Assembly: GCA_947175645.1 (NCBI GenBank)
Contig: CAMWNP010000027.1
Coordinates: 1-39,588, forward strand
Direction: 5' to 3'
Source of the DNA: an uncultured Porphyromonadaceae bacterium
GTDB taxonomy: Bacteria > Bacteroidota > Bacteroidia > Bacteroidales > Muribaculaceae
DNA length: 39,588 nucleotides
The position numbers and the translations under genes were made by a program. Below the pieces are notes generated by a model. It did not search any database. It had not been told where the DNA came from and saw nothing but the letters and a program-made list of their open reading frames with translations. Numbering within the stretch: position 1 is the first letter of the stretch; every line of letters begins with the position of its first letter. Of this stretch, positions 15,572 to 28,813 are shown piece after piece.

Positions 15572-15670
15572 TACACATTCGTTTCAGTGGACAATCCGTG
15601 ATCTCCTGACATTTGAAGAGTTTATTTGATGATTTGTGCTCCAACAAATTCGGCTGTATTTTCCCATCAG

Positions 15671-15757
15671 CCTCATCCTCAGCGTCTTGCATCTGACCTA
15701 TTCTGACAAACCTTAAGAGGCTGTGTCAACATTCATTTTGAAGTGACACAGCCTCTT
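15671..15757 (+). repeat. Convergent-junction hairpin repeat, copy 1
   Basis: A 44-base conserved core (15671-15714, beginning CCTCATCCTCAGCG and containing GCATCTGACC and TTCTGACAAA) leads into a perfect 14-bp hairpin: AAGAGGCTGTGTCA (15715-15728) with TGACACAGCCTCTT (15744-15757). It lies between the stop codons of the glycosyltransferase (+) and ackA (-), where the hairpin could terminate transcripts from both sides. The A+T-rich stretch 15572-15670 holds no recognised gene and is not shared with the other two copies. Confidence 0.8.
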
Positions 15758-15780
15758 GATATAGGTTAAATCTCTGTGGG

Positions 15781-16983
15781 TCAGAGTGATGAAACAATGG
15801 CGTCGGTATCGCGTGCTATCATAAGTTCCTCATCTGTGGGAACCACAACCACGGTTACTTTTGATTCCGGAGTTGAGATGACGGTTTCAGTTCCACGCAC
15901 GCTGCTGTTGAGTTCCTCATTGAGTTCAACACCCATGAAACCGAGGGGTTTGCAAACGTTTGAACGTAGACCTGTCTGATTTTCGCCCACACCACCGGTA
16001 AATACGATGATGTCAACTCCTCCCATTTCGGCGGCGTATGCACCGATGTATTTGATGATGCGCTGTTCATACATGTCAAGGGCCAGGGTGGCACGTTCGT
16101 CACCCGCTTTTACGGCAGCCTCAATCTCACGCATGTCACTTGAAATCTCAGAAATACCCACAACACCGCTCTCTTTGTTGATGATGCGCTGGATATCATC
16201 GGCAGTGTAGCCATATTTTTTCATCAGGAAGGTGATAGCACCGGGGTCAACATCGCCCACACGGGTTCCCATCATCAGACCTTCGGTGGGGGTCAATCCC
16301 ATGGATGTATCCACGCTCTTGCCATGAAGTACGGCTGTGATTGACCCGCCGTTGCCAACGTGACAGGTGATAATTTTCTTATCCTCGGGTCTGACGCCCA
16401 GAATTTCACACACCCGGCCTGAAACATATCGGTGGCTTGTGCCGTGGAATCCGTAACGGCGCAGACCATCCTCCTTGTAGAACTTGTAAGGCAGAGGATA
16501 CATGTAACTCTTAGCGGGCATAGTCTGATGGAATGCGGTGTCGAACACACCAACCTGAGGCACTCCGGGAAGCACCGCCTCGATAGCCTCCACGCCTGTT
16601 ATGTTTGCCGGATTGTGCAGGGGCGCAAGGGGATAACATTCCTTCACTTTGGCAACAACCTCATCATCAATGAGCACGCTCTTGCTGAATTTCTCCCCTC
16701 CGTGAACCAGACGGTGACCCACCGCACCGATTTCGTCGAAACTCTTTATGCAGCCGTTTTCAGGGTCGGTCAGCACTTTGAGGATAGCCTCCACTGACCC
16801 TTTGTGGTCAGTCAGTCCAAGGGGAAGAATTTCCTTGGTGCCGTCAGGTTTCTTGAACTTCAGAAACGCGTCAGGCAGACCAATCTTTTCAACACCACCT
16901 TCAGCCAGTGTCTTTTCGCCGTCGGTGTCAATAAGTTTATATTTTACGGAACTGCTGCCACAGTTCAAAACAAGTATTTTCAT
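15781..16983 (-). CDS. ackA: Acetate kinase
   Basis: Converts acetyl phosphate and ADP to acetate and ATP, the energy-yielding step of acetate fermentation. The 400-residue protein is full length. N7 (LNCGSSS), R91 (GHRLVHGG), D148 (GVFDTAFH) and H180 (GFHGTSH) match the classic active-site numbering, and HVGNGGS supplies the phosphate-binding loop. It lies downstream of pta on the same strand. The 180 bases between them are almost entirely a 193-bp MITE-like element. Removing the element would make the pta stop overlap this ATG, so coupling seems to have been lost. How ackA is now expressed is unclear; no perfect promoter box is seen inside the element. Confidence 0.97.
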   Translation of the reverse strand: MKILVLNCGSSSVKYKLIDTDGEKTLAEGGVEKIGLPDAFLKFKKPDGTKEILPLGLTDHKGSVEAILKVLTDPENGCIKSFDEIGAVGHRLVHGGEKFSKSVLIDDEVVAKVKECYPLAPLHNPANITGVEAIEAVLPGVPQVGVFDTAFHQTMPAKSYMYPLPYKFYKEDGLRRYGFHGTSHRYVSGRVCEILGVRPEDKKIITCHVGNGGSITAVLHGKSVDTSMGLTPTEGLMMGTRVGDVDPGAITFLMKKYGYTADDIQRIINKESGVVGISEISSDMREIEAAVKAGDERATLALDMYEQRIIKYIGAYAAEMGGVDIIVFTGGVGENQTGLRSNVCKPLGFMGVELNEELNSSVRGTETVISTPESKVTVVVVPTDEELMIARDTDAIVSSL

Positions 16984-16999
16984 TTTTTTGATTCTTTAA

Positions 17000-17192
17000 G
17001 AGAGTGTTTGGATTTAAATGATTTTAGCACAAAGAGAGATTTTGGGATGATTTTTGAAAGTTGAAGAAGGAGCGATGCGGGCATCGCGACTGATGAAATC
17101 TTTTAAAAAGCGCACAAAAGATCCTTTGTGGAGAAATCAAAAATTTTCAAAACTCTCAAAATATTAAATTTGGTTTAAATTCGAACACTCTC
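17000..17192. mobile_element. 193-bp MITE-like element inserted at the pta 3' end
   Basis: Terminal inverted repeats GAGAGTGTTTGGATTTAAA (17000-17018) and the complement of TTTAAATTCGAACACTCTC (17174-17192) match at all but two positions. The element is flanked by the direct repeat TAA (16997-16999 and 17193-17195). It has no coding capacity. Inside are a 7-bp hairpin GCGATGC/GCATCGC (17072-17087) and CACAAA/TTTGTG (17113-17130). The three-base TNA-type duplication resembles that of some IS5-group elements, but the parent transposon is not in the window. The pta stop codon lies inside the element. Confidence 0.8.
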
Positions 17193-18195
17193 TAAGTCCG
17201 ATGGCCTGATTACATGTCATGATAATGGTTTTGTAGATATCCTCGGGGAAGCATCCGCGTGACAGGTCGTTGACCGGAGCGGCAAGCCCTTGAAGCACGG
17301 GACCTACGGCCTGCACGTTGCCCAGACGTTGCACCAGTTTGTATGCTATGTTGCCCACTTCAAGAGATGGGAAAACAAGCACGTTGGCGCGTCCGCTCAG
17401 AGGTGAGTTGGGCGCTTTGGAAGCACACACTCCCGGAACTATAGCGGCATCAGCCTGCAGTTCTCCGTCAAGAATGAGCGAGGGGTTGAGTTTATGGGCC
17501 AGTTCGGTGGCTTTGATAACCTTGTCGACGCGGTCATGCTTGGCGCTTCCTTTAGTGGAGAAACTCAGGATTGCCACACGAGGTTCGATGCCTGCTATGT
17601 CATGCGCAGTCTGACCGGCGGCCACCGCTATCTGAGCCAGTTCCTCAGCAGTTGGATCGGGGACTACAGCACAGTCGGCGAACACCAGAATACCGTCTGT
17701 TCCGAAGGGGAGACCCTCAGGCAAGAGCATTATGAACGCTCCGGAAACTACATCTATACCGGGTTGGGTTTTGATAACCTGGAAAGCCGCACGCAGCACA
17801 TTCCCGGTGGTGTTCATGGCTCCTGCCACCTGACCGTCAGCGTCACCGGCTTTAACCATCAGGCAACCTAAATACAGCGGGTTTGCAGTGGTAAGCCGTG
17901 CCTCTTCCATACTTATCCCCTTCTTTTTTCTCAATTCATAAAACAGGGGGGCATATTTGTCAATCACCTTTTCATCGGCCGGATTGACAATCGTGGCATT
18001 AGGGATATTCACCAGGTTCATCTCCTTTGACATCCGGAGAATATCCTCGGGGTCACCGATAAGTGTTATCTTGGCCAGACCGTCGCCAATGATTCGGTCG
18101 GCAGCCTTCAGCGTACGCGGTTCGGTACCTTCAGGCAGGACAATACGCTGAACATTTTCCTTGGCTTTCAGCGTCATTTTGTCAAACAGTTCCAT
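17164..18195 (-). CDS. pta: Phosphate acetyltransferase, short form
   Basis: Transfers the acetyl group of acetyl-CoA to phosphate, feeding acetate kinase. The 343-residue protein is the short form without the N-terminal regulatory domain. Typical segments are [39 protein letters not shown] and the C-terminal [23 protein letters not shown]. The last nine residues and the stop (after IGL) are read from the terminal repeat of the inserted element (17000-17192). The reconstructed ancestor would end in KESKK with its TGA overlapping the ackA ATG. The catalytic body is intact, so activity is probably retained. A promoter box lies at 18234-18241. Confidence 0.96.
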
Positions 18196-18241: not shown

Positions 18242-18279
18242 TAAAAAGATGTTGAGCAATGAAAATTTTCAGAACCCTT

Positions 18280-18311
18280 TTTGTTTTATTGACTCAATAA
18301 TATTAACTTTG
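18280..18311 (+). promoter_or_regulatory. Promoter of the B12 riboswitch-btuGB transcript
   Basis: TTTG (18280-18283), 20 bases, then TAACTTTG (18304-18311): a full match to the Bacteroidetes consensus. Transcription would start near 18315, at the 5' edge of the riboswitch. Confidence 0.75.
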
Positions 18312-18313
18312 CA

Positions 18314-18450
18314 TTATCCTTTTGCAGGGAATTCGGTGAGAATCCGAAACAGTACCCGCTGCTGTAACCCGGACATGCGTTCCACATTATGCCATTGGTG
18401 ACAACCGAGAAGGCGTGGCTACGATTGCCGGCAAGTCAGAAAACCTCGTA
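18314..18450 (+). promoter_or_regulatory. Cobalamin (AdoCbl-type) riboswitch
   Basis: The conserved aptamer parts are in order: GGGAATTCGGTGAGAATCCG, CCCGCTGCTGTAA, GCCATTGG with GAGAAGGC, and the B12 box AAGTCAGAAAACC at 18433-18445. After the box comes AAGGAG, then an ATG at 18459, then a small hairpin ACCG (18466-18469)/CGGT (18478-18481). That hairpin could be the P13/L13 partner of the kissing-loop switch used by class I cobalamin riboswitches. There is no T-rich terminator, so control is probably translational. It precedes the btuG-btuB pair, as expected for B12 repression. Confidence 0.9.
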
Positions 18451-18548
18451 AGGAGATCATGTTTAACCGCGGGATAACGGTGTGTCACATTCAGTCCAGT
18501 CAACAGGTCACAATCATTTCCCGCAAAATGTCAACTGTTTGCCGGGAT

Positions 18549-28360: not shown

Positions 28361-28387
28361 AAACAGTCATTCTAATACTTACATAAT

Positions 28388-28545
28388 GAGGGAGTGTCAA
28401 AATTTTCGGTTTGACACTCCCTCTTAAGTTTTGTCAGAAAAGGTCAGATGCAAGGCGTTGAGGATGAGGACTATAGGAGTATACATAAGTATGTGACTGA
28501 GTCCGAATTCCGAAAGCAACGGCACAGATGGCATATTATGACACA
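28388..28545 (-). repeat. Convergent-junction hairpin repeat, copy 3 (inverted)
   Basis: Read on the minus strand, it begins GTGTGTCATAATATGCC (near 28545), contains CCTCATCCTCAACGCC and CATCTGACC, and ends in a perfect 14-bp hairpin: GAGGGAGTGTCAAA (28388-28401) with TTTGACACTCCCTC (28410-28423). In copies 1 and 2 the stem is GAGGCTGTGTC/GACACAGCCTC, so both arms changed together here. It lies between the amylase stop and the tolC relic and supplies the relic's last 39 codons and stop. Confidence 0.8.
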
Positions 28546-28813
28546 CAGCCTGGTTGGCGAAATTATGGCTCGTGGAGAATCCTACGGACGGAAGCCAAGC
28601 ATCCTTGGCTGAGCCTATGGATTCTTCGGCATCAAGGATCGAGAGTACGTTTCGTCGGATTTCAGGATTGCTTTCCACTGCGCGTTCCACACATCGGCTG
28701 AAGGTCCAGACGTTTGACCCGGAAATGCTGTCAGCGGTTTGTGCTGACGCATACAATGGGAACATGGTCCATAAGGATGCGCCAAGGACCGTGATTATCT
28801 TTAAAGGTTTCAT
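28424..28813 (-). pseudogene. Truncated TolC-family outer-membrane efflux gene
   Basis: Residues 1-90 are a normal TolC/OEP beginning: signal peptide MKPLKIITVLGASLWTMFPL...ASAQ, then VWTFSRCVERAVESNPEIRR and IGSAKDAWLPSVGFSTSHNF. A full protein would be about 450 residues. After V90 (near 28544) the frame passes into repeat copy 3 and stops 39 codons later, so the barrel and most of the tunnel are missing. No remainder of tolC lies on the other side of the repeat, so the event was a deletion or rearrangement, not a simple insertion. The promoter (28835-28866) still looks intact, so a short secreted peptide might still be made. Confidence 0.85.

Follow-up and report, generated by a model that had tools for sequence, protein, structure and literature searches.

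A MITE with IS5-type ends in the 3' end of pta of a Muribaculaceae bacterium, and a covarying hairpin at a fixed distance from the ends of related elements

The window considered here, a stretch of 39,588 nucleotides (contig CAMWNP010000027.1, positions 1 to 39,588, assembly GCA_947175645.1) from an uncultured bacterium of the Muribaculaceae, encodes phosphate acetyltransferase (pta) and acetate kinase (ackA), and the junction of these two genes is occupied by a 193-bp element. The element is a non-autonomous IS5-type transposon, that is, a miniature inverted-repeat transposable element (MITE), and includes a short hairpin with tandem G.A pairs, referred to below as the module, which recurs in many genomes of the family. 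The features of the locus, with the terminal inverted repeats (TIRs) of the element and the evidence for each, are the following.

15781..16983, minus strand: ackA, acetate kinase, 400 aa (NCBIfam TIGR00016, 518.2 bits)
16997..16999, plus strand: left TAA copy of the target duplication (sequence; TNA flanks of related elements)
17000..17192, plus strand: 193-bp IS5-type MITE (TIRs, target duplication, two copies of 96% identity elsewhere in a genome of the same genus, insertion sequence with these ends in a relative)
17000..17018, plus strand: left TIR, GAGAGTGTTTGGATTTAAA (repeat search; matches the left end of the insertion sequence in L047)
17056..17105, plus strand: the module, a conserved hairpin with tandem G.A pairs (score with model R1 60.1 bits, E 3.2e-16, this copy being itself part of the model alignment; covariation; distance to the end)
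17164..18195, minus strand: pta, phosphate acetyltransferase, 343 aa (NCBIfam TIGR00651, 363.2 bits)
17167..17193, minus strand: nine codons, RECSNLNQI, replacing the native Pta tail (reading of the open reading frame; same-genus tails KENK or KESK)
17174..17192, plus strand: right TIR (repeat search; matches the right end of the insertion sequence in L047)
17193..17195, plus strand: right TAA copy of the target duplication (sequence; TNA flanks of related elements)

The TAA flanks, read from the sequence, enclose the element exactly; the repeat search in 16900-17300 reported a sole inverted repeat, with arms of 20 nt at 16999-17018 and 17174-17193 that are 90% complementary, and no direct repeats, while the 19-bp arms compared by eye match at 17 of 19 positions. 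As single-stranded DNA, the segment 16997-17195 folds at -36.1 kcal/mol against -17.7 +/- 2.84 in 200 shuffles (z -6.48). The longest open reading frame wholly within the element has 38 aa, and no transposase gene lies inside. The first codon of the new Pta tail takes one base from the target duplication, the new pta stop is at 17164-17166, and 180 bases (16984-17163) separate it from the ackA start. An earlier note on this DNA had described a MITE-like insertion with near-perfect TIRs beside TAA, a rewritten Pta C-terminus and a 180-base separation of the genes, and all of these readings hold; its reconstruction was also reproduced by eye, in that removal of the element and one TAA leaves a pta frame ending in ...IGLKESKK whose TGA overlaps the ackA ATG. 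An assembly artefact was considered and rejected, the element lying inside a 39.6-kb contig and near-identical elements being found elsewhere.

In its own genome (3.17 Mb, 139 contigs) the element has one full copy, and two further places match the interior only in part; at least part of it is matched in 78 of 298 Muribaculaceae genomes, its own included, belonging to 13 of 30 genera. The nearest copies, at 96% identity, lie at two other places in the same-genus genome G001, and in G171 both element ends match about 890 bp apart. An insertion sequence (IS) with the same ends, 891 bp long, was located in a same-family genome (L047 1596-2486); blastn of the element against it aligned the left end at 93.5% over 31 bp and the right end at 87.5% over 40 bp in the same orientation, together with two inverted counterparts of these end matches and two chance-level pieces. 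Between the ends of this IS a transposase of 259 aa is encoded, which matches NCBIfam transpos_IS5_3 (NF033580) with 182.6 bits (cut-off 110; E 9.5e-54) and the Pfam domains DUF4096 (PF13340) and DDE_Tnp_1 (PF01609); a match to it at E 1e-40 or better occurs in 29 of the 298 family genomes. Since the element ends align with those of an IS that has an IS5-family transposase, the element is a MITE with IS5-type ends, and the IS5-group transposase with the same ends that the earlier note had proposed to look for is thus present in a relative. Derivation of the MITE from that IS by internal deletion was rejected: the alignment extends only over 31 and 40 bp at the ends, and the module is missing from L137, which is the same place as L047, and from its nearest relatives L138-L142, so that the MITE is not that IS minus its middle and the module is not required by every such IS. 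The transposase that cut and pasted the element into a TAA target would have been provided in trans, as the assembly shows no match of this kind at E 1e-40 or better. The insertion, 16 nt before the ackA start, gave pta a new stop and replaced its C-terminal end by nine other residues, so that 180 nt now lie between this stop and ackA. A palindrome of about 40 bp in another locus (L017 ~1501-1541, G000:C3:28927) resembles the left and right MITE ends joined without the interior.

The module follows the pattern GA-R-GGAG-stem-loop-stem-YGAC-Y-GA, in which two tandem G.A pairs lie between standard pairs; a third tandem G.A further out is common, both halves being GA in 23 of 45 copies and the first GA being present in 39. 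An exact 18-mer, GGAGCGATGCGGGCATCG, occurs in 36 of the 298 family genomes, the present one included, with up to 41 copies in one genome, and its reversed form, used as a control in the same genomes, gave no match in the table; in an order-wide sample it was found in 3 of 295 genomes, all three Muribaculaceae. Many copies within a genome are near identical, and in a gap-free alignment of copies the paired positions change together. A search with an open stem returned other stems, including CAATGC, CATAGC, TGTAGC, CGTAGC and CATACC, each with its complement; a mononucleotide-shuffled control gave no hits for the strict pattern and 8 for the relaxed one. The regular expression fixed R-GGAG and YGACYGA, so that the invariance of these letters is due to selection of the copies, left the outer pairs and the first GA free, and demanded at least 3/5 pairs in the inner stem; of its 120 hits, 16 with fewer than 3/5 inner pairs were excluded (about nine are the same hairpins in a second register and the rest look coding), and 45 of 48 nonredundant copies were aligned, with omission of L109, a match close to a pta locus which looks coding, and of L225:410-468 and L249:411-463, which are second-register or poor.

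In this alignment of 45 distinct copies (A1), 93.1% of the pair cells are standard pairs, against 21.7-43.2% in slid controls; 125 cells are changed on both sides against 44.1 in shuffles, and the covariation score is 0.618 against 0.238, neither value being reached in any of 500 shuffles. RNAalifold found the inner nine pairs and did not find the outer three. A second set of 20 distinct rows from other Bacteroidales families (A2), which were fitted to the model, is 84.1% paired against 16.8-42.9% in slid controls; its inner helix is 95.4% paired and its outer one 48.1%, the outer pairs thus being unsupported. At columns 17/34, for which the expression allowed only G-U or G-C, G-U is the commonest pair (33/45 rows of A1 and 19/20 of A2). 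Rfam gave no match up to E 1 in window positions 16800-17400, and in ten loci, most of them with the module, only a cobalamin riboswitch reached the gathering score. Two other explanations were rejected. The 18-mer is not a palindromic operator of double-stranded DNA, given that self-complementarity is lacking at the G.A positions and that changes on one side of the stem are accompanied by changes on the other; and a small reading frame in the module is destroyed by the other stem versions (by eye).

The position of the module relative to the element ends is nearly constant. Among 113 distinct contexts collected around the hairpin core, 82 show a good inverted repeat at least 150 bp apart (score of at least 11), and 71 of these have GA..TC ends; in this set of 71 the distance from the terminal GA to the GGAG of the module is 67-71 nt in 70 elements and exactly 69 nt in 41, the window element included, where GGAG begins 69 nt from the left end on the strand antisense to pta-ackA. 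The single outlier is L056 with 140 nt, and the distance on the opposite side varies from 83 to 235 nt. The sequences of the ends around the core are diverse and include GAGAGTGTTTG, GAGTATGTTTAC, GAAACTGTTTAAA, GAGCTTGTTTAAT, GAGTCTGTCTTG, GAGCCAGTTTACT and GAAGTTGTTTAAAC; the same core is therefore found between different ends. The 3-bp flanks are identical in 51 of the 71 elements and both identical and of the TNA form in 48, TNA being the target rule of the IS1031-like group; identical TNA flanks were also seen by eye at the module-bearing loci L143, L155, L159 and L161-L165. In G001 one hairpin core lies between two terminal-repeat types within one genome (L018/L051 and L169, L218), and these loci suggest that interiors have been exchanged between MITE families.

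The same geometry is present in elements that encode a transposase. In 30 loci with IS5-family transposase matches, model R1 finds 18 copies in 10 loci; in L156, L159 and L161-L165 one module lies on each side of the transposase match and both read inward. In particular, terminal repeats of 34-35 bp in L159, L161, L162, L163, L164 and L165 delimit spans of 1112-1283 bp that enclose the transposase match and both modules, and in these six ISs the module starts 57 nt from its end in 12 of 12 cases; in L156, 22 bp of repeat enclose both modules, while L155 and L143 have one module each, again at 57 nt. Terminal repeats and stems differ in sequence among these ISs and the position of the fold is constant.

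Within the window, model R1 finds two places, the second being a divergent copy in a repeat of another family.

28463..28512, plus strand: second, divergent module copy (model R1 28.9 bits, E 1.4e-6; one of the 45 rows of the model alignment)

In the whole genome, where 150 of 728 candidates were scored, R1 finds 57 places at E 0.1 or better, including 51 that reach 0.01; these E-values are rough, and some own-genome copies are part of the model alignment. Thirty own-genome copies inspected fall into three sorts: the window MITE plus one element with AGAAACTA ends; elements with AGACCCGGTTCCCC-like ends, which have a CGTAGC-type hairpin near one end or a CAATGC-type one near the opposite end; and a repeat that contains AGAGGGTGTGTC-like palindromes. 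Further afield, R1 matches 114 of 199 Muribaculaceae genomes, the present one included, and 14 of 247 genomes of the order, namely three Muribaculaceae and eleven from ten other families, several of these matches being weak. Three of 80 pta loci of named genomes have a module copy (L062, L065 and L085), in none of them within the pta-ackA spacer; it lies about 1.3 kb past the pta match in the first two, where it is found shortly past ackA (L062 2884-2935, L065 4303-4354), and about 1.7 kb before it in the third.

Taken together, the locus is very probably explained by insertion of a MITE that carries the hairpin as a folding module, for which a role as a cis-acting part of the transposon end is the likeliest of those considered. 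Such an end would consist of the terminal repeat and a hairpin of fixed size beside it, and the folded strand would be recognised by a protein common to these elements; MITEs would keep the module after the loss of all coding DNA because it would act in cis at the end. This mechanism ranks first, ahead of a role as RNA and then of no function, although taken alone it is put at slightly less than an even chance, and it is favoured because the module stands at a fixed distance from a DNA end and is retained in MITEs, in which only cis-required sequence persists. For the spacing itself, inheritance without insertions or deletions could produce it; given how far stems and ends have diverged, it is simpler to suppose that the arrangement is under selection. 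In general form, and as a tentative proposal, some IS5-type transposons of Bacteroidales may have composite ends in which a TIR is followed at a fixed 69 nt by a folded hairpin with double tandem G.A pairs, at both ends and reading inward, the fold and not its letters being recognised; such a module would be common to elements with different TIRs and spread by MITEs to scores of places per genome.

Besides the possible inheritance of the spacing, several observations weigh against this interpretation. The window MITE has the module near one end only, the IS in L047 is flanked by TAA and TTA, which are not identical, and in 20 of the 71 GA..TC-ended elements the 3-bp flanks differ from each other. 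The own genome has a single full copy and no match to the L047 transposase at E 1e-40 or better, so that the signs of mobility come from relatives only, and the absence of the module from L137-L142 counts on the same side. In A1, two of the five measures of covariation are not extreme: changes on both sides affect 10 of 12 pairs, a value reached by 17 of 500 shuffles, and further pair types number 23 against 20.8, reached by 65 of 500.

The folding asymmetry and the G-U pair at columns 17/34 speak for RNA over DNA. In a comparison of 32 nonredundant elements out of 78, the GA strand folded as RNA has the greater stability in 30, its advantage over the complementary strand is larger than the mean of the shuffles in 28 (mean z -1.5) and the z-score itself is lower in 26; for the window element the values are -64.9 kcal/mol for the GA strand and -43.9 for the other. 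On these grounds it is possible, and rated below the cis-acting end, that the module works as RNA: transcripts entering from either side would fold and a protein or nuclease would act there, either reducing read-through into the transposase gene or protecting or processing the host transcript. The inward reading of both modules of an IS agrees with this, as does the orientation of the neighbouring genes, which was taken from simple calls of open reading frames with element types mixed: 5' of the module, the neighbouring gene runs in sense in 69 of 109 cases, and in 19 of 22 when the 25 own-genome copies are taken alone. Genes 3' of it, by contrast, show no bias (51 sense, 56 antisense), a fixed distance to a DNA end is unexpected for a feature of a transcript, the folding strand in the window is antisense to pta-ackA, and G.T pairs favour one strand in DNA too. 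A simple scan for promoters and terminators found one of each, where shuffles gave 0.9 and 0.4. It is rather improbable that the module is a functionless remnant of a single old element, distributed to other element families by recombination; some elements do adjoin or sit inside others (flanks of L027, L226 and L279), many within-genome copies are near identical and the spacing could be inherited, but at least six stem sequences keep their pairing through two-sided changes, where decay would break pairs, and the distance is kept in spite of strong sequence differences between the enclosing terminal repeats.

MITEs related to IS5 are known from another member of the Bacteroidales, Porphyromonas gingivalis, in which BrickBuilt, MITE464/PgRS, MITE239 and MITE700 likewise have ends that match IS5-family ISPg elements, and some of these ends start with GAGAC; unlike the window MITE, BrickBuilt and MITE464/PgRS are built around tandem repeats, and the main text of that paper does not use the word hairpin, nor do the available passages describe a module of this sort (PMC4596501). 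A three-nucleotide target is given as a feature of the IS1031 group in the available portion of PMC2516522. The same-ended IS resembles members of this group in its DDE transposase encoded by a single open reading frame, which the MITE lacks. No hairpin in a fixed position next to the terminal repeat is known to us from the IS5 family. Subterminal hairpins at a set distance from the ends are found in IS200/IS605 elements, which have single-strand HUH transposases and no TIRs; the elements described here differ from them in having an IS5-type DDE enzyme, terminal repeats and target duplication. Correia/NEMIS elements of Neisseria are also short MITEs with a conserved core, which can bind RNase III and control neighbouring genes; they differ in hosts and ends, and in the available portion of that source no double tandem-G.A module was seen (PMC2649163). 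Rickettsia palindromic elements, as described in part of PMC10969869, also change protein sequences on insertion; they lie in frame inside open reading frames, whereas here only the last residues of Pta are replaced and a new stop is introduced. A literature search, whose coverage left out preprints and most subscription articles, returned nothing on MITEs in Muribaculaceae or on the hairpin module. The insertion in pta is an ordinary event of mobile DNA, whose effect is probably small, and the surprising part is a covarying hairpin, without an Rfam match in the regions searched, that is placed at a fixed distance from the ends of differing elements and occurs in numerous genomes of a major gut bacterial family. 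A folded strand as an end part of a DDE cut-and-paste element would, if true, be a new principle, and if the module acts as RNA instead it would be a new RNA module of mobile DNA; which of these applies, a folded strand in DDE transposon ends or an RNA module spread by elements, is a testable question.

The state of the pta-ackA junction before insertion was examined in relatives, which are other species. Seven of nine same-genus genomes have pta; one of these is the window itself and one is cut at a contig end, leaving five readable junctions, all without the element and with a TAA stop followed by spacers of 21, 21, 21, 28 and 30 nt (two counted by eye), and the five Pta tails end in KENK or KESK. 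The same-genus genome G008, 98% complete, gave no pta match at E 1e-60. The search of named genomes, which includes three of the five loci, kept 80 pta loci and resolved 79 junctions, whose median spacer is 28 nt; the spacers range from -4 to 109 nt except in L132, where the longest measures 590 nt, and a four-base overlap occurs in two (L098, L099) and is absent from 77. The Pta tails of these 79 vary after a conserved NQA, and other residues in the tail would be unlikely to matter; since the last residues of Pta and the pta-ackA spacer both vary among relatives, little loss of function is expected from the insertion. A TGA at +1 of the ackA start is present in all 79 resolved junctions, in part by selection since the start pattern demanded TGAA, one of the 80 loci being unresolved with this pattern; in the 77 non-overlapping junctions the pta frame is in register with this TGA in 19, and reading on ends exactly there in 8.

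According to the earlier note, the ATGA overlap was strong evidence of an ancestral, translationally coupled state, and empty sites in relatives should read pta-ATGA-ackA. This was not borne out: none of the five same-genus junctions and two of the wider 79 overlap, and because the ackA start itself supplies the TGA, which 8 of 77 frames would reach by chance, a reconstructed gene junction that shows an ATGA overlap provides weak evidence for coupling, which is to be taken as a warning. That pta and ackA were coupled through the overlap and that the insertion broke this coupling is nevertheless conceivable, if doubtful, in view of the open frame that excision leaves, the presence of the overlap in L098 and L099, and the compatibility of the data with an overlap private to the own lineage just before insertion. 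It is also plausible, and held tentatively as the better of the two accounts, that the insertion entered a junction with a normal spacer and that the old pta tail and spacer were later shortened by deletion, which is possible because the new pta stop lies inside the element, so that the ATGA was never in a working gene. The TAA stop and spacer of the relatives fit this history; by eye, the leftover KES is similar to the tail KESK in L009, and an A-run that precedes the ATG is consistent with a deletion. On the other side, no intermediate was seen, and the intact TAA duplication confines any deletion to its ackA side.

The ends of adjoining frames were also considered in the 32 elements with at least 700 bp on both sides, of which eight account for ten long open frames that end at or within the element; these frames run from stop to stop and were not checked as genes, the change of a native end being examined for pta only. 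In L054, L171 and L198 a long adjoining open frame has the TAA of the target duplication as its stop, so that with a TNA target a stop codon can be preserved when an element inserts.

Two copies of another repeat are present in the window, at 15600-15780 on the minus strand and 28370-28550 on the plus strand, in which a perfect 14-bp palindromic hairpin lies beside a common stretch; the divergent G.A hairpin module is carried by the second. A cobalamin riboswitch (RF00174, 89.5 bits) lies beyond the pta start on the plus strand, at window positions 18264-18465 (L001 2768-2969), and reaches an open reading frame at 18459.

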